Assembly (NCBI GenBank): GCA_029251465.1
Contig: JAQXDI010000061.1
Coordinates: 1 to 64,000, forward strand
Origin: Ascidiaceihabitans sp.
GTDB lineage: Bacteria > Pseudomonadota > Alphaproteobacteria > Rhodobacterales > Rhodobacteraceae
Length of the DNA: 64,000 bases
Direction of reading: 5' to 3'
Shown piece by piece: positions 13,438-21,089 of this stretch. Position numbers and translations under genes: made by a program. Every line of letters starts with the position of its first letter. Position 1 is the first letter of the stretch. A model generated the notes under the pieces. The model was not told where the DNA came from. It saw only the letters and a list, made by a program, of their open reading frames with translations, and made no database searches.

Positions 13438-14832
13438 CTAATTCGTAATGATCTCAGGCCCCATCACCGCGTTCGGAATGAACGTCGAGATGATTGGAAT
13501 GTAGGTCACCATGATCAGGAACACGAACAGCACGGCCAAGAACGGCAAGGCTGCGCGCACGACTGACATCATTGGCATGCCCGCCACACCGGACGTCACG
13601 AACAGGTTCAGCCCAACCGGCGGCGTGATCATCCCGATTTCCATGTTGACCACCATGATGATGCCCAAGTGGATCGGATCAATACCCAGTTCAATCGCAA
13701 TCGGGAACACCAAGGGTGCCACGATCACCAACAAACCCGACGGTTCCATGAACTGACCACCGATCAGCAAAATCACGTTAACGAGGATCAAAAACACCAC
13801 AGGGCCAAAGCCAGCGCTCAGCATCGCCTCGGCAATGTGTTGCGGGATTTGTTCGTCCGTAAGCACGTGTTTCAGGATCAGCGCGTTGGCGATGATGAAC
13901 ATCAACGTGACCGTCAGCTTGCCAGCCTCAAACAGCGCATCGCGCACGTCGCGGTGAAAGAACGCCGTGATGATCGCATGCGGTTTTTGCAGCAGGGTCA
14001 GGTTTTTCTCGCCCTCGGGGCGGCTCAGCGGGCCCATGTCACGGTAGACAAACACCGCGACGAGGAATGCGTAGACCGACGCCACAGCAGCCGCTTCGGT
14101 CGGCGTGAACAACGCCTTGGTCAGGCCCGGAATGCCGTAAATTCCAACCATGATGATCACGATCAGCATCAGGCCCCAGAACGCGTCACCAAAGCTGCGC
14201 AGCACTTCGCCCCAGCCCTGCCACTGACCTGCCGGCATATTTTTGATGCGCGCCATGATGTAGATGGTGATCATCAGCATGGTGCCGGCCATCAGGCCTG
14301 GAATGATCCCTGCCAAAAACATCCGTCCCACGGACACGTCCGTGGCAGAAGCGTAGACCACCATCACGATACTCGGCGGGATCAAAATGCCAAGCGTGCC
14401 TGCGTTGGCAATCACCCCTGCGGCGAATTCTTTGGTGTAACCCGCCTGCGTCATTGCGGCGATCACGATGGATCCGATGGCGACCACAGTGGCAGGCGAA
14501 GAGCCCGACAAGGCTGCAAAGATCATGCACGCAAACACACCCGCAATCGCCAAACCGCCGCGAAAATGCCCGACGCAAGCGATAGAAAACCGGATGATCC
14601 GTTTAGCCACACCACCTGTCGACATGAACGTCGAGGCCAGAATGAAAAACGGGATTGCCAGCAGCGTGTAGTGGCCCGCCATGGCCTGAAACAACGTCTG
14701 CGCGATAGACGCCAGCGACGTGTCGCTCAGCACCAGTAAAAAGATAATCGATGACATGCCAAGCGAGACCGCGATCGGCACACCGATCAGCATCATGGTG
14801 ACAACCATGGCGAAAAGAACTGCGACTTCCAT
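13438..14832 (-). CDS. dctM: TRAP transporter large permease subunit DctM
   Basis: This 464-residue protein is almost wholly hydrophobic, with about 12 membrane helices in the DctM/IT-superfamily arrangement (ALSGSSPATVVAIGSIVIAAMTQAGY, GTLGILIPPSIVMVVYA, and MEIGMITPPVGLNLFV near the C-terminus). It forms the ion-coupled channel of a tripartite uptake system. It follows dctQ by 3 bp and is last in the dctP-dctQ-dctM unit. The substrate is probably a C4-dicarboxylate or another organic acid, judged from the neighbouring DctBD pair. Confidence 0.95.
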   Translation of the reverse strand: MEVAVLFAMVVTMMLIGVPIAVSLGMSSIIFLLVLSDTSLASIAQTLFQAMAGHYTLLAIPFFILASTFMSTGGVAKRIIRFSIACVGHFRGGLAIAGVFACMIFAALSGSSPATVVAIGSIVIAAMTQAGYTKEFAAGVIANAGTLGILIPPSIVMVVYASATDVSVGRMFLAGIIPGLMAGTMLMITIYIMARIKNMPAGQWQGWGEVLRSFGDAFWGLMLIVIIMVGIYGIPGLTKALFTPTEAAAVASVYAFLVAVFVYRDMGPLSRPEGEKNLTLLQKPHAIITAFFHRDVRDALFEAGKLTVTLMFIIANALILKHVLTDEQIPQHIAEAMLSAGFGPVVFLILVNVILLIGGQFMEPSGLLVIVAPLVFPIAIELGIDPIHLGIIMVVNMEIGMITPPVGLNLFVTSGVAGMPMMSVVRAALPFLAVLFVFLIMVTYIPIISTFIPNAVMGPEIITN

Positions 14833-14835
14833 AGC

Positions 14836-15525
14836 TTATGACCCTTGGTTCATGTGTTTGACGGCTTCGACATCGTCTTCGGCCTCGTGGCTGACGATCA
14901 GGCTTGTGGCCTCGTCTTTGACCAAACGCACGGTGGCTTGGATAAAGCGGAACAACAGCAAGCCGATGCCAATGGGCAGGATCGCGTAAGGAATAAAGCG
15001 TGGAATTTTCTCGTATTCTTCGCCCTCATTCATGATCGGTTCGATCCAGCGTAGCCATTCAGGCAACGGAATATCGATGACTTCGTACCAGCCGCGATAA
15101 GACGAGCGTTTCATTTCCTCAAACCCCGTCGGGAACCAGCGCCCCGTGGTCTGTGGCAGGTTGGCAAAGTTCGCCCAATAGTCCCACGCGCCCTTTAGAA
15201 CCAAGCTTGCGTAGACAAGGCAAACAGCGGCGGCAATCAACGCCAACAGTTTGCGGGTGGGTGGTAAAAACAGGTTGATGACGGCGTCGACACCCAAATG
15301 GGCGGTGACTTTGACAGCGTAGGACACTCCAAAAAGCACCAACCATGCGAACAGGAAGGTCACCATTTCAAGACCCCAGATCAGACCAGTACCAAAGCCG
15401 TAGCGCAACACGACATTCGCAAAGGTGATGATGGTCATAGCGCCCAGCAACAGCGCGATCACGGTCTCTTCAAACTCGTGTACAAAGCGCGCCAGCGCCG
15501 TTTTGGGTTCATAGCGTTGTGCCAC
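14836..15525 (-). CDS. dctQ: TRAP transporter small permease subunit DctQ
   Basis: This 229-residue protein has four membrane helices: ETVIALLLGAMTIITFANVVLRY, GLEMVTFLFAWLVLFGVSYAV, LLALIAAAVCLVYASLVL and FIPYAILPIGIGLLLFRFIQA. Between the third and fourth helices there is a polar loop of about 70 residues, longer than in small DctQ proteins but known in the longer subgroup. The start was set at GTG 15525 because GGGGAGGGCAG precedes it and a longer reading would run into dctP. The linker to dctP holds a strong hairpin and a short tandem repeat, so dctQM is likely expressed below dctP. Confidence 0.9.
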   Translation of the reverse strand: MAQRYEPKTALARFVHEFEETVIALLLGAMTIITFANVVLRYGFGTGLIWGLEMVTFLFAWLVLFGVSYAVKVTAHLGVDAVINLFLPPTRKLLALIAAAVCLVYASLVLKGAWDYWANFANLPQTTGRWFPTGFEEMKRSSYRGWYEVIDIPLPEWLRWIEPIMNEGEEYEKIPRFIPYAILPIGIGLLLFRFIQATVRLVKDEATSLIVSHEAEDDVEAVKHMNQGS

Positions 15526-15626: not shown

Positions 15627-16628
15627 TTAGTGCTTGGCGTTGATCGCTTGGGCTGCGTCGATGTTTTCTTGGCCAACGTCGCCAACAAACTCTTCCCAAA
15701 CAGGTTTCATCGTGGATACCCAAACTTCGCGTTGCTCAGCTGTTAGCGTGCGCACTGTGCCGCCCGCATCGATGATCGCTTGCTTGTTGGACGCGTTCAC
15801 AGAAGACGATTCACCGTTACGCGCGGTTGTGACTTCTTCGATGATGGTGGCCAGCTGGTCACGGACATCGTCTGGCAGGCTGTCCCAGAAATCAGTCGAG
15901 GTCACCAGCAAATAGTCGATGATGCCGTGATCGGTTTCGGTCACACCGTCTTGAACTTCAAAGAACTTTTTGCCATAGATGTTGGACCAGGTGTTTTCCT
16001 GACCATCGACAACGCCGGTTTGCAACGCACCGTACACTTCGGAAAACGCCATTGGCTGCGGGGATGCGCCCATCGCAGCCATTTGCGCCTTTAGCACGTC
16101 AGAGTTTTGTACGCGGAACTTCAGACCATTCGCATCTGACGGCACGTTCAAAGGCACGTTTGCCGACATTTGCTTCATGCCGTTGTGCCAGAACGCAACG
16201 CCCAAAAGACCACGACGTGTCATAGATTCTTTCATTGCCTGACCGGTTTCAGAGTTCTGAAACTCGTCTACAGCGTTGATGTTTTTGAACATGAACGGCA
16301 AGTCGAAGATGCGGAATTGCTTGGTGAACTGTTCGAATTTGGACAGCGATGGGGCCGCCAATTGAACGTCGCCTTGCAGCATCGCCTCAAGCACTTGGTT
16401 GTCGTTGTACAACGTCGAGTTCGGGAACACTTCGAGGCAAGCTTTGCCGTTCATTTCCTCGTTCACGCGCTTTTCAAGCAATGTGGCTGCGATGCCTTTT
16501 GGGTGCTTGTCGGTGTTGGTGACGTGGCTGAATTTGATGACGATTTCGCCATCATCACAAGCAGCCTGAACGGCACCTGCACTGACGGACATGGTCAGGG
16601 CCACAGCAGCGGCGGTAAAGAATTTCAT
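15627..16628 (-). CDS. dctP: TRAP transporter substrate-binding protein DctP
   Basis: This 333-residue periplasmic receptor has a signal peptide (MKFFTAAAVALTMSVSAGAVQAA) and the DctP/DctP7-like fold: VIKFSHVTNTDKHPKGIAATLLEKRVNE, LPFMFKNINAVDEF, GLKFRVQNSDVLKAQMAAMGASPQPMAFSEVYGALQTGVVDGQENTWSNIYGKKFFEVQDG. The arginine in KFRVQ that salt-bridges the ligand carboxylate is present, in line with an organic-acid ligand. GGAGGAGA precedes the ATG. It is the first gene of dctPQM, with two palindromic sites about 190-250 bases upstream. Confidence 0.95.
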   Translation of the reverse strand: MKFFTAAAVALTMSVSAGAVQAACDDGEIVIKFSHVTNTDKHPKGIAATLLEKRVNEEMNGKACLEVFPNSTLYNDNQVLEAMLQGDVQLAAPSLSKFEQFTKQFRIFDLPFMFKNINAVDEFQNSETGQAMKESMTRRGLLGVAFWHNGMKQMSANVPLNVPSDANGLKFRVQNSDVLKAQMAAMGASPQPMAFSEVYGALQTGVVDGQENTWSNIYGKKFFEVQDGVTETDHGIIDYLLVTSTDFWDSLPDDVRDQLATIIEEVTTARNGESSSVNASNKQAIIDAGGTVRTLTAEQREVWVSTMKPVWEEFVGDVGQENIDAAQAINAKH

Positions 16629-16778
16629 AAGATGTCTCCTCCCAGAGTTTTCAAAATGTCGTGCGCAGCCTCATTGGGCTTGCGTCGGGCATATTTGATA
16701 GGATTTGACAGGACGCGGCAACGAATTGTGTCGATCGTGCGCAAATCGCCTTAATATTTATAAATTACAGAGTGTTGA

Positions 16779-16869
16779 GGGAATTTCCCAATGTGCTCGC
16801 GCAGCGCATCATCGCTTTGTGTGCGGAAATCCGCACAGTGAAAATCGCGTTTGTGCGGATTTCCACACG
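16779..16869. promoter_or_regulatory. Paired palindromic operators upstream of dctP
   Basis: TGTGCGGAAATCCGCACA (16820-16837) is a perfect 8-2-8 palindrome. A second, imperfect copy, TGTGCGGA-TT-TCCACACG, lies at 16852-16869; the centres are 32 bp apart, about three helical turns. GGGAATTTCCC at 16779-16789 is a third small palindrome. Their position upstream of dctP and beside dctD suggests DctD binding sites. I found no -24/-12 sigma-54 promoter between them and dctP. A sigma-70-like TTGCCG-17-TCAAAT can be read on the minus strand about 60-100 bases before the dctP start. Confidence 0.6.
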
Positions 16870-16871
16870 TC

Positions 16872-18101
16872 TTATCGGCGGAAATCTTCTGGCCGAATCC
16901 CGTAGCGCGTCAGCTTGTCGTAAAAGGTTTTTCGCGGTAATTTCAGTACCTCTGCAGCCTCAATCGCGCGCCCGTTGTGACGGCCCAATGCGGCGACCAA
17001 CAGTGACTTTTCAACCCGCGCGAGCTGCTCTGACAACCCCATTTCGGCGGCTTGGGTCACGTCCTCGGGCATGCCCAACACAAACCGCATGGCGGCACTC
17101 ATTAAGGATCGCGCGTTTCCGGGCCAATCTTGGGTCATCAGGGCTGCCGCAAATTGCGGTTTAATTTCTGGCGCAGTCAGCCCCGCCTGCTCACTCGCTA
17201 AGGCCACGTATTGGCGGAACAACACGGGAATATCCTCGGGGCGTTCGGCCAAAGACGGTATGCGCACCGGCATCACATCGAGACGGTAGAACAAGTCAGC
17301 ATTCATTTGACCAGCCTGCACAGCCATCTGCAAATCGCCTGTGCTGCCAGCGAAAAGCCGCGTTTGCGCACCGCGTTCCAGCGCCTCAATCAGGGACAAT
17401 TGCGTGTCAGCGGGCAGTTGCACGATTTCGTCAATGAACAAGCAACCGGTTGCGGCCTCATCGAAGGCGTCGCTCAAAACCGCGGGCGTCATGCCGGACC
17501 CGGCACGTTTCACAAACGGCGCTTTTGAGCGCACGGAACTGAGGTGGATCACCTGGGCCACCTTGGAAATGCCGGTACCAGGAGCACCAGTGATCAGCAC
17601 CTCGGCGTCCAGTTGCGCGACGCGCCGCACACGGGCGCGCAGGTTGTCTGATAGTTCAGATTGCCCGAACAACATCCGCGCAGCAGGGTCGCCGGTTTCG
17701 ACCAAATGTTTAAGCCTGCGGTTTTCCAAAATTAGCCCACGAGTCTTAAGCGCTTGTTGAAGAACGGCAAGTAAATCACTGGGTGCGCATGGTTTTTCCA
17801 AAAACCCAAACGCGCCTTGCGCCATAGCTTGGACAGCCATGGGAATGTCACCTTCGCCGGTTAACAAGATCACAGGCAGGTCGGGATCCTGGGCTTTGGC
17901 GTAATCCAAAAGGTGAAAGCCATCCCGCCCCGGCATCCGAATATCCGACAAAATGACACCATCAAAGTCGGCTGTGATCCGGTCCTTGGCCGCAACAAAC
18001 GAACTGGCTGTGATCGCCTCAAGCTCGGCCAATTCCAGCGTTTGCGCCACAGCGTCGCGGACAGCGGCGTCATCATCAACCAACAAAACCTGGATGCTCA
18101 C
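16872..18101 (-). CDS. dctD: DctD-like response regulator with degenerate AAA+ domain
   Basis: This 409-residue NtrC-family protein is shorter than typical DctD (about 440-460). The receiver is intact with phospho-acceptor Asp53 (VILSDIRMPGRDG). The central AAA+ domain is altered: Walker A reads GAPGTGIS, with Ile178 where Lys is required, and the segment before Walker B (CLFIDEI, residues 220-226) lacks the GAFTGA loop that contacts sigma-54, about 20 residues being absent. The C-terminus has a Fis-type helix-turn-helix (NGRAIEAAEVLKLPRKTFYDKLTRYG). It overlaps dctB by 4 bp. It probably binds DNA in response to DctB but should not act as a sigma-54 ATPase activator. Confidence 0.88.
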   Translation of the reverse strand: MSIQVLLVDDDAAVRDAVAQTLELAELEAITASSFVAAKDRITADFDGVILSDIRMPGRDGFHLLDYAKAQDPDLPVILLTGEGDIPMAVQAMAQGAFGFLEKPCAPSDLLAVLQQALKTRGLILENRRLKHLVETGDPAARMLFGQSELSDNLRARVRRVAQLDAEVLITGAPGTGISKVAQVIHLSSVRSKAPFVKRAGSGMTPAVLSDAFDEAATGCLFIDEIVQLPADTQLSLIEALERGAQTRLFAGSTGDLQMAVQAGQMNADLFYRLDVMPVRIPSLAERPEDIPVLFRQYVALASEQAGLTAPEIKPQFAAALMTQDWPGNARSLMSAAMRFVLGMPEDVTQAAEMGLSEQLARVEKSLLVAALGRHNGRAIEAAEVLKLPRKTFYDKLTRYGIRPEDFRR

Positions 18102-19846
18102 GTGCTATTCCCTTCATCCCAGCGTTCCAGTTGCACGGTGAACATCGCCCCGCTCGGCGTGTTTGCGCCGCGAATTTCACCACCAAAGCTTTGGACGATG
18201 CCATAAGAAATCGACAATCCCAACCCCATGCCTTCGGACGCGCCGACCTCTTTGGTGGTGTAAAACGGATCGAAAACCTTGTCGGGCATGTCAATTCCGG
18301 GCCCTGTATCACAGATGTTAACAACGAGAAGATCGCCTTCTTTGATGCTGATTTCAATGAATTTTTTCACGCTTTGACCCATCGCATCCACCGCATTAGA
18401 GATCAAATTGATAAACACTTGGCTAAGGCGGACTTCTCCGCCGCGCACCCAAATGGGATGATCCGAGCGGGCGTAATTCAGAACGACACCCGCCTGATCC
18501 ATGCCCGGTTGCATCAGCTCAAGCGCACTGTCCAGAACTGCCACCAAATCAACCCGCGACAACGGTTCGCTTTCTTGTTTTGCAAACGCGCGCAGGTTTT
18601 TGATGATGCGCCCCATGCGTCGCGCCAGATCGGAAATCCGGATCAGGTTTTCGCCCGCACGCTCCGGCTTGCCCCGCTCCATGAATTGCGCGCCGTTTTC
18701 CGCAAACGAGCGGATCGCCATCAACGGTTGGTTCAATTCGTGGCTGATCCCCGCGCTCATCTGCCCCAACGCGCTAAGTTTGCCAGCCTGCACCAAATCA
18801 GATTGCGCGCGCGCCAGTGCGGTTTGGGCTTGTTCGCGTTCTTTGGCCTGTGCGCGCAGTTGCGTGTTGGTGTCTTCCAATTCTGCGGTGCGCGCCGCCA
18901 CGCGCGCCTCTAGCTGGGCGTTCGCCTCGGCCAAGGTGCGGCGTCGTTCTGTGGCCAAAAACAGCAATGCGCCAAACGCGAGGAAAAGGGCTGCCACAGC
19001 CAACGCTTGCAGCCGCGCCAAACGACGTGCAGGTCGCACATCCATCAACACTTCGCCGATGAAACCGATCACGGGCAGTTCGCGCGTGATATGCAGTGCA
19101 TTTTGCGGCAAATATGGCCCCCACCCAAGCTGCCAAACCTCGAACCGACCTTGAAAGAAACTATCAAAATCAGGAGCTTGCCCAACAGGAGGCACCAAAC
19201 CCGCCTGCCCCGAAGGTCTGCGCCAAAACACCAGCTCCGAGCGGTTAGAAATGAACACTTCGCCCGCTTGATCCGTGAAAAACACGGCAGGGTTGCCACC
19301 GACCCAATCCCATTCGATGCCCGCAATATTCGCCGCAACAACCACGGCACCGATCACCTTGCTTTGCCCGTCAAACACCGGTGCCGCGTAGTAATATGCG
19401 CGCGCAGCAAGCGGTCGACTTAGCCCGTGCGCCCAGCCCAACGCGCCCTGCATCGCGCGGCGTACGTATACGGTTTGGCTCAGATCGGCACCGGCATCGC
19501 TGCGTGCTGCCTGCACGACACGCCCCGTTCGATCCACCAACATCACATCTAACGCGGCGGTTTTATCAGCAATATCAAGCAGTAGTGCTTTGACAGATGT
19601 CGCACTCTGCCCGCGAATGGCTTGCGTGACTTCGCCACGATCCGCCGTCAGCACCGACAGTTCGCGGTAGCGTTGCAACTGCCCTGTCAAACGGTCGCTG
19701 GCCAAGGCCAGATCGACAGCGCCCTGCCGCGCCAGTTGGGTCAGCGCCTGCACATATCCATAGCGCCAAACGCCGCCTGACACGGCCGCCACCAGCGCCA
19801 AAAACGCCAATACGATCACCAATCTTTTGAAAACACCGCGCCCCAT
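18098..19846 (-). CDS. dctB: Sensor histidine kinase DctB
   Basis: This 582-residue inner-membrane kinase has one helix near the N-terminus (VIVLAFLALVAAVSGGVWRYGYV), a periplasmic double-PAS-like sensor region of about 240 residues, a second helix near LQALAVAALFLAFGALLFLAT, a coiled coil, and the kinase core. The phospho-acceptor histidine is in QMSAGISHELNQPLMAIRSFAENG, followed by the N, G1 and G2 boxes (LISNAVDAMGQ, VNICDTGPGIDMPDKVFDPF, GMGLGLSISYGIVQSFGG). This layout matches DctB, which senses C4-dicarboxylates. It is upstream of dctD with a 4-bp overlap and is divergent from the P450 gene. Confidence 0.93.
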   Translation of the reverse strand: MGRGVFKRLVIVLAFLALVAAVSGGVWRYGYVQALTQLARQGAVDLALASDRLTGQLQRYRELSVLTADRGEVTQAIRGQSATSVKALLLDIADKTAALDVMLVDRTGRVVQAARSDAGADLSQTVYVRRAMQGALGWAHGLSRPLAARAYYYAAPVFDGQSKVIGAVVVAANIAGIEWDWVGGNPAVFFTDQAGEVFISNRSELVFWRRPSGQAGLVPPVGQAPDFDSFFQGRFEVWQLGWGPYLPQNALHITRELPVIGFIGEVLMDVRPARRLARLQALAVAALFLAFGALLFLATERRRTLAEANAQLEARVAARTAELEDTNTQLRAQAKEREQAQTALARAQSDLVQAGKLSALGQMSAGISHELNQPLMAIRSFAENGAQFMERGKPERAGENLIRISDLARRMGRIIKNLRAFAKQESEPLSRVDLVAVLDSALELMQPGMDQAGVVLNYARSDHPIWVRGGEVRLSQVFINLISNAVDAMGQSVKKFIEISIKEGDLLVVNICDTGPGIDMPDKVFDPFYTTKEVGASEGMGLGLSISYGIVQSFGGEIRGANTPSGAMFTVQLERWDEGNST

Positions 19847-19907
19847 GACCGCATCCTATCAAACTGTGCCTTGCAAATACCAGCGCGCATACGCTTTGGT
19901 GGTTGCC

Positions 19908-21089
19908 ATGAAAGAGCTGTCAAAATCCCCGACCGATCCTGCGTTTGTGCAAGACCCTTATGCATTTTACGACCACGCCCGCACACAGGGGCCCGTCGTG
20001 TTTTGGAAAGACTACGGGATGCTTGCCGCCTTTGATCATGGCACGGTTCACGCGCTTTTGCGTGATCGCCGCTTGGGGCGCGAAGTTCCGCTCGATCAGC
20101 GCAAACCTGTGCCGGACCATCTGCAAGCCTTTGATGCGGTTGAGAAACACTCGATGCTGGAAAAAGAAGGTGACGGGCACCGGCGTTTGCGTGGCCTTGT
20201 TTTGCGCGCCTTTACCTCGCGCCGGATCGCGGCACTACACGATGATATCGTCGAAATCTGCGCCGAACTGATCGCGGATTTTCCTGATGCGCCCTTTGAT
20301 CTGATCCCTGCCTTTTGTACCCAAGTGCCCGTGCGCGTGATTGCCCGTCTTTTGGGTGTCCCCGAGGATCGCAGCGCCGATTTGTTGCGCTGGCCCAACG
20401 CGATGGTCGCGATGTATCAATCCAACCGCAACCGCCAGATCGAAGACGCGGCAGAATTTGCCGCCCGCGAATTCGCGACGTTTTTGCGCACCTACATCGA
20501 AACACGACGTGACGATCCGCGTGACGATCTGATCACCCACCTGATTGCAGCCGAAGAAGATGGTACCAAACTGTCCACGGACGAACTGATTGGCACCTGT
20601 GTTTTGCTGTTGAATGCAGGACACGAGGCCACTGTGCACTCGCTTGGCAATGCGATCAAAACGCTAGTGGAACACGGAAAAACAGGTGCCTGTCTGGAAC
20701 CTGACCAGATCGCAAATACCGTCGAAGAATTGCTACGCTACGACCCGCCCCTGCATATCTTTACCCGCTATGCCTATGAAGACATTGACGTTTTAGGTCA
20801 CACTCTCAGAAAAGGGCAACAGATTGCGTTAGTGCTTGGGGCTGCGGGACGTGATCCTGCGCTTTGGCCAAATGCGGATCATTTTGACCCCGATCACAAC
20901 GCCAAAGCACATCTGGCCTTTGGCGGCGGAGTGCATTTTTGCGTTGGTGCCCCTTTGGCGCGGTTAGAGCTGCAAATTGCGCTGCCAATGCTGTTTGCGG
21001 CATTGCCGGACATGACGTTCACCGCCCAGCCAATATACGCAAACAGCTACCATTTTCACAAGTTGGAAACCCTGATTGTGACGCCCTAA
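19908..21089 (+). CDS. Cytochrome P450
   Basis: This 393-residue soluble P450 shows the ExxR motif (EELLRYDPPLHIFTR), the heme loop FGGGVHFCVGAPLARLE with ligand Cys345, and an I-helix LLLNAGHEATVHSLGNAI. In the I-helix the position of the usual proton-relay threonine after the Glu is Ala (AGHEA), as in P450eryF, so oxygen activation may rely on substrate or water. The start was taken at 19908; earlier in-frame ATGs would overlap dctB. No ferredoxin or ferredoxin reductase is adjacent, so its redox partner is elsewhere, perhaps the reductase at 26.3 kb. The substrate is unknown. Confidence 0.92.
   Translation: MKELSKSPTDPAFVQDPYAFYDHARTQGPVVFWKDYGMLAAFDHGTVHALLRDRRLGREVPLDQRKPVPDHLQAFDAVEKHSMLEKEGDGHRRLRGLVLRAFTSRRIAALHDDIVEICAELIADFPDAPFDLIPAFCTQVPVRVIARLLGVPEDRSADLLRWPNAMVAMYQSNRNRQIEDAAEFAAREFATFLRTYIETRRDDPRDDLITHLIAAEEDGTKLSTDELIGTCVLLLNAGHEATVHSLGNAIKTLVEHGKTGACLEPDQIANTVEELLRYDPPLHIFTRYAYEDIDVLGHTLRKGQQIALVLGAAGRDPALWPNADHFDPDHNAKAHLAFGGGVHFCVGAPLARLELQIALPMLFAALPDMTFTAQPIYANSYHFHKLETLIVTP

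Follow-up and report, generated by a model that had tools for sequence, protein, structure and literature searches.

The window, a 64,000-nucleotide stretch from an Ascidiaceihabitans contig, carries on its minus strand a set of genes for C4-dicarboxylate uptake: dctD, coding for a response regulator; dctB, coding for its presumed sensor kinase; and three genes of a TRAP transporter, dctP, dctQ and dctM (Table 1). The hallmarks of a DctBD uptake system are all found here: a receiver domain with its phospho-acceptor Asp, a Fis-type helix-turn-helix (HTH), a DctB kinase, an adjoining dct transporter, and enhancer palindromes of the DctD kind upstream of the transporter gene. Between the two conserved ends of DctD lies a degenerate AAA+ domain, and it is this domain, together with the DNA upstream of dctP, that sets the system apart.

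An initial annotation, made from the letters alone, described an intact receiver (Asp53) and Fis-type DNA-binding end, isoleucine in place of the Walker A lysine, and about 20 missing residues including GAFTGA. This description is sound. The protein keeps Asp53, the Walker B sequence FIDE and the HTH; Ile178 occupies the lysine position in GAPGTGIS; and, by comparison with S. meliloti DctD, 19 residues are absent between F196 and the strand preceding Walker B, GAFTGA among them. A second gap by the same comparison removes about 12 residues of the L2/pre-sensor-1 region; neither of the loops that contact sigma-54, L1 or L2, is therefore left. The first arginine-finger position is altered as well, reading MNADL here and FNADL in most relatives, where classical DctD has an FRADL-type sequence. 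AlphaFold2 nevertheless predicts a confident fold for the AAA+ domain (pLDDT about 90; the arrangement of domains is uncertain, with a pTM of only 0.56), and the solved structures nearest to the model are those of NtrX, NtrC4, NtrC1, VpsR and FleQ.

Table 1. Features of the dct region, in window coordinates
Feature	Position	Strand	Remark
dctM-like gene, large TRAP subunit	13438-14832	minus	assigned by gene order
dctQ-like gene, small TRAP subunit	14836-15525	minus	start inferred; assigned by gene order
dctP, TRAP transporter substrate-binding protein	15627-16628	minus	presumed DctD target
-10-like TCAAAT	16693-16698	minus	17-bp spacer; transcription start expected near 16687
-35-like TTGCCG	16716-16721	minus	
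Conserved IHF-like site CAACACTCTGTAA (16777-16765) plus A/T tract	16751-16777	minus	
Proximal DctD enhancer palindrome, TGTGCGGAAATCCGCACA on the plus strand	16820-16837		perfect arms; matches the S. meliloti dctA site exactly
Distal DctD enhancer palindrome, CGTGTGGAAATCCGCACA on the minus strand	16852-16869		2 arm mismatches
dctD, response regulator of 409 aa (Fis-type HTH, degenerate AAA+ domain)	16872-18101	minus	GTG start
Site of L2/pre-sensor-1 deletion, about 12 residues (residues about 240-246)	17364-17384	minus	from alignment
Site of 19-residue L1/GAFTGA deletion (residues about 200-216), followed by Walker B FIDE	17454-17504	minus	from alignment
Degenerate Walker A GAPGTGIS (residues 172-179), Ile178 at the Lys position	17565-17588	minus	I/T/V/L/S/N in 136/136 orthologues
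dctB, sensor histidine kinase (dCache-like, HisKA, HATPase_c)	18098-19846	minus	overlaps dctD start

These changes are not peculiar to one strain. The initial annotation had suggested aligning roseobacter DctD proteins around Walker A and GAFTGA; in such an alignment of 136 orthologues from the Rhodobacteraceae (a few genomes being counted twice, as a named and a nameless copy), neither the lysine nor GAFTGA is present in a single protein. The lysine is replaced by I in 101 cases, by T in 16, V in 15, L in 2, and S and N in one each. Other parts are retained with great regularity: Asp53, K103 and the HTH core PRKT in all 136, the sensor II Arg in 135, the Walker B D and E in 132 and 124, respectively, and the P-loop glycines G172, G175 and G177; the first arginine-finger position is Asn in most. 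In close pairs dN/dS is 0.03-0.08 over the whole of dctD; within the AAA+ part it is 0.03-0.12. The recurrence of the same changes throughout the set rules out a sequencing error or a mutation confined to this locus, and DctD is under selection, though not as an ordinary ATPase. One orthologue (L164, genome G009) has an internal TAA.

The DNA sites have been kept along with the protein. The S. meliloti dctA upstream region contains TGTGCGGAAATCCGCACA, the same 18 bp as the proximal palindrome of the window, followed by the canonical TGGCACGCATGTTGC; binding of DctD at this type of enhancer is established in rhizobia. By this identity, the window palindromes, which lie 32 bp apart from start to start, are classical DctD enhancer sites. 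The pair is retained in 124 of the 136 loci (107/116 in an earlier sample), with a spacing that is nearly always 32 or 33 bp and in a few cases 31 or 34. With the lysine gone from 136/136 proteins and the pair present at so many loci, the residue losses and the conservation of the sites are far beyond chance. A stringent search for tandem palindromes matched only 3 of 41 relatives, because the second palindrome is usually imperfect. In the whole 3.3-Mb assembly the pattern TGTGNGGN4CCNCACA has a single match, so that DctD probably has one main target in its own genome; a broader regulon marked by palindromes with perfect arms was rejected on this ground.

Downstream of the palindromes, the element that a classical DctD would serve is missing. 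The best match in the window to the -24/-12 consensus TGGCACN5TTGC is 6/10, no better than shuffled sequence, and GG-N10-GC occurs nowhere in the 243-bp interval; a hidden -24/-12 element was rejected on these grounds. A few relatives have loose matches (L069, L113, L114, L151 and L158), always away from the position expected downstream of the palindromes. What is conserved instead emerges from an alignment of the regions upstream of dctP, anchored on the proximal palindrome: otherwise dissimilar, they share three places, an IHF-like element, a TTG and a -10 hexamer. Statistics were taken on 105 loci filtered to <60% identity and compared with shuffles. The IHF-like element (YAAN4TTGATW) begins at +43 from the proximal palindrome, is followed by an A/T tract, and at this fixed position scores a mean of 6.8 out of 9, against 5.2 for shuffles (maximum 5.5). 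The TTG (near +99) falls 96-101 nt past the palindrome in 82% of loci (shuffles: mean 7%, maximum 14%), and the first and last T of the -10 hexamer follow at 17-bp spacing in 57% (shuffles: mean 6%, maximum 14%). Together these argue for a conserved sigma-70-type promoter downstream of distal sites. Counted from the expected start, the enhancers of the window lie at about -142 and -174; the IHF-like site spans about -90 to -78. HU/IHF-family genes are present in the genome; in the window, an HU/IHF-family domain match lies at 2384-2584 on the minus strand, inside an open frame of ~207 aa. On the DNA side, then, the initial annotation was right to report two palindromes 32 bp apart, to find no TGGCAC-N5-TTGC site, and to say that a sigma-70-like pair can be drawn; TTGCCG-N17-TCAAAT stands at a conserved distance from the palindromes. 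It overlooked the loss of L2, the identity of the enhancers, the family-wide extent of the changes, and the conserved IHF-like site between enhancers and promoter.

The sigma-54 gene itself, rpoN, was not found in the source genome. As that genome is 91% complete, this is weak evidence alone, but it is strengthened by the rest of the genus: rpoN is absent from 11 of 12 genomes, one of them listed as 100% complete, an agreement that rules out incomplete assembly as the cause. The twelfth carries a relic broken by in-frame stop codons (G199:C40:8236-8716), which suggests that sigma-54 was lost within the genus or just before it. Across 198 genomes of the family, 83 carry this DctD, 66 without rpoN and 17 with it (Fisher p = 0.012, kinship ignored); in the rpoN-positive carriers that were read, DctD is changed in the same way and the expected position holds no -24/-12 site. 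Other proteins resembling enhancer-binding proteins (EBPs) in the source genome include NtrC-like, NtrX-like and two further members (loci L001-L004, on G000:C51, C77 and C60), all without GAFTGA. Since GAFTGA was found in none of the EBP-like proteins read there, compensation by another sigma-54 activator was discarded.

Relatives outside the window class allow the change to be ordered. In one rpoN-positive relative (L126), DctD has GETGTGKE and GAFTGA, the tandem palindromes are 32 bp apart, and a -24/-12 site, TGGCATGGATTCTGC, lies upstream of dctP. In the relative L122 the lysine is present (GATGTGKD) and GAFTGA is lost; the palindrome pair is there, the second copy imperfect, with a sigma-70-type TTGATC-N17-TTCTGT. 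Read as stages, the series runs from L126 through L122, where GAFTGA is lost, to the window class, which then lost the lysine and forms one clade in a tree some of whose inner nodes are poorly supported. A sister lineage (L123, L124, L125, L128, L129, L131, L140 and L141) has lost Walker B and mostly kept the P-loop lysine; its dctP is divergent, with the same palindrome upstream in most members; three of them carry it twice, 41 bp apart. The DctD proteins of Sphingobium and Paracoccus (L166 and L168), encoded beside dctA, keep the lysine and the tandem palindromes; they have lost GAFTGA, and there is no -24/-12 site. Four DctD-like proteins from loci with no dctP (L127, L130, L132 and L139) vary GAFTGA at the Thr (GAYPGA, GAFAGA, GAFPGA and GAFVGA). 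The alignments and tree point to a family-wide rewiring in stages, not a local mutation.

The mechanism these observations suggest, to which we assign a probability of about 70%, is that DctD acts as a phosphorylation-gated activator that does not hydrolyse ATP and acts, together with IHF, from distal enhancers at a promoter of the sigma-70 family. That is, DctB would sense C4-dicarboxylate and cause phosphorylation of Asp53; DctD dimers would occupy the two classical palindromes (about -174 and -142); IHF would bend the DNA between these and the promoter (about -90 to -78); and DctD would aid RNA polymerase carrying a sigma-70-family factor, most likely RpoD, at the weak TTGCCG-N17-TCAAAT, giving transcription of dctPQM. 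The AAA+ domain would contribute a fold and a surface for oligomerisation or contact, without ATP hydrolysis. IHF is reported to stimulate DctD-dependent dctA transcription in R. leguminosarum, an effect not seen in vitro for S. meliloti (PMC9827912), so its use at the window dctP could be inherited. The initial annotation had proposed a system 'rewired to sigma-70 or to repression': the sigma-70 half gains strong comparative support, and the repression half, still possible, gains nothing positive. Uncoupling from sigma-54 is strongly supported, because rpoN is absent, the new promoter is conserved at a fixed distance, and an rpoN-positive relative has both GAFTGA and a -24/-12 site. As five defining features of sigma-54-dependent EBPs are lacking (Walker A lysine, GAFTGA, L2, -24/-12 and rpoN), the window DctD falls outside that class in a functional sense, though descended from it.

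Several considerations weigh against this account. The shuffle comparison takes no account of kinship among loci. A strict sigma-70 consensus scan matched no promoter in the window, the promoter proposed here being too weak for it; the empty result fits a weak activator-dependent promoter, yet lends it no support. Taken over the loci, the -10 gives a poor consensus (about TTYACT), which leaves room for RpoH or some other member of the sigma-70 family. The fixed distance between the conserved elements ties them to one another and says nothing on the sign of regulation. Finally, the 17 rpoN-positive carriers imply that the DctD change need not follow loss of rpoN in every lineage.

DctD might instead be a repressor, with the bound palindromes and an IHF-assisted loop silencing the sigma-70 promoter until DctB lifts the block. 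Some GAFTGA-less relatives do repress (TyrR, and Caulobacter NtrC at hvyA and sciP; PMC10274813), and looping repression is compatible with the arrangement of sites. We consider this unlikely: the predicted start lies about 142 and 174 bp from the centres of these upstream sites, which do not overlap the promoter, the hexamers are weak, as expected where an activator is needed, and the ancestral role at these same enhancers, known for rhizobial DctD, is activation. The identity of the sigma factor raises a separate alternative, that RpoH or the like takes the place of RpoD at the conserved promoter. The CTTG(A/T)G-N17 motif would also suit alphaproteobacterial RpoH promoters, and the -10 matches TATAAT poorly; against this, no RpoH-type -10 (CTATAT-like) is conserved, and a carbon-uptake operon would be an unexpected target for RpoH, which leaves this reading with a small share of the probability.

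The state of the ATPase bears on the remaining possibilities. DctD might need to bind nucleotide without hydrolysing it, by way of the P-loop glycines and Walker B, as R. capsulatus NtrC is reported to do; this would be a variant overlapping the activator model preferred here, and is given a low probability. G172, G175, G177 and the Walker B D/E are indeed still conserved, but no orthologue has the lysine that Caulobacter NtrC needs (K178A is inactive there; PMC10274813), and the first arginine-finger position is altered. That DctD still acts with sigma-54 in some unconventional way might be entertained because 17 of 83 carriers have kept rpoN; with L1 and L2 deleted, no -24/-12 element, and rpoN absent in most carriers, this genus included, it is very improbable. 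Loss of key catalytic residues could also mean that the sequence contains an error or that the gene is a pseudogene in decay, with dctP expressed constitutively, an idea already refuted by the comparative data: 136 orthologues share the changes, dN/dS is low, the palindromes are conserved, and the frames are intact except for the one noted above.

Among characterised regulators, the window DctD has a receiver, an HTH core (PRKTFYDKL), an 18-bp enhancer palindrome and a DctB partner in common with S. meliloti DctD, which differs in having GETGSGKE, GAFTGA, L2 and a -24/-12 promoter, and in controlling dctA where the window gene adjoins a TRAP operon. HupR of R. capsulatus has a distal palindrome near -160, IHF near -87 and a sigma-70 promoter; the mode of action is alike, the regulon and binding site different. 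R. capsulatus NtrC, from the same bacterial order, is a GAFTGA-less EBP-like activator reported to work with sigma-70 and to need ATP binding (PMC10274813). The initial annotation drew this parallel, and aptly: GAFTGA is gone here as well, and the comparative promoter is of the sigma-70 type downstream of distal sites. It fails at the ATP site, as the window DctD has lost the Walker A lysine. Caulobacter crescentus NtrC, also GAFTGA-less and acting at sigma-70 promoters, needs the Walker A lysine, as well as Walker B (PMC10274813). VpsR of Vibrio cholerae lacks GAFTGA, acts at sigma-70 promoters and is reported not to require ATP (PMC10274813, where it is printed VspR; PMC9303241); it matches DctD in structure, though it acts with c-di-GMP and serves another regulon. 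With respect to the ATP site, the window DctD is nearer to VpsR than to R. capsulatus NtrC.

Beside the dct genes, a cytochrome P450-like gene (19827-21089, plus strand), recognised from its reading frame alone, is divergent from dctB.

EBP-like regulators without GAFTGA are already known. The novelty seems to lie in a DctBD system of such a type, in its extent through a family, in the retention of its enhancers, and in two routes of ATPase decay; a literature search, with most subscription journals outside its reach, found no publication on the regulation of roseobacter DctD. A bolder generalisation, for which the odds appear about even, is that this DctD family serves a sigma-70 promoter from tandem enhancers of the classical kind without binding ATP at all: one ancestral loss of GAFTGA would have been followed by dismantling of the ATPase in at least two ways (the Walker A lysine here, Walker B in the sister lineage), and what was an AAA+ motor would now be a passive scaffold, gated by phosphorylation, that works with IHF to activate from a distance.

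The label 'sigma-54 dependent transcriptional regulator', as applied to DctD-like proteins in the plasmid records consulted, can mislead where GAFTGA is gone or the genome has no sigma-54. DctD is a candidate for an enhancer-type activator that is free of ATP, and the case shows what may become of an ATPase once it is no longer needed. The intermediates, for their part, show how a sigma-54 enhancer circuit can pass into a sigma-70-type circuit with its DNA sites and two-component input kept.
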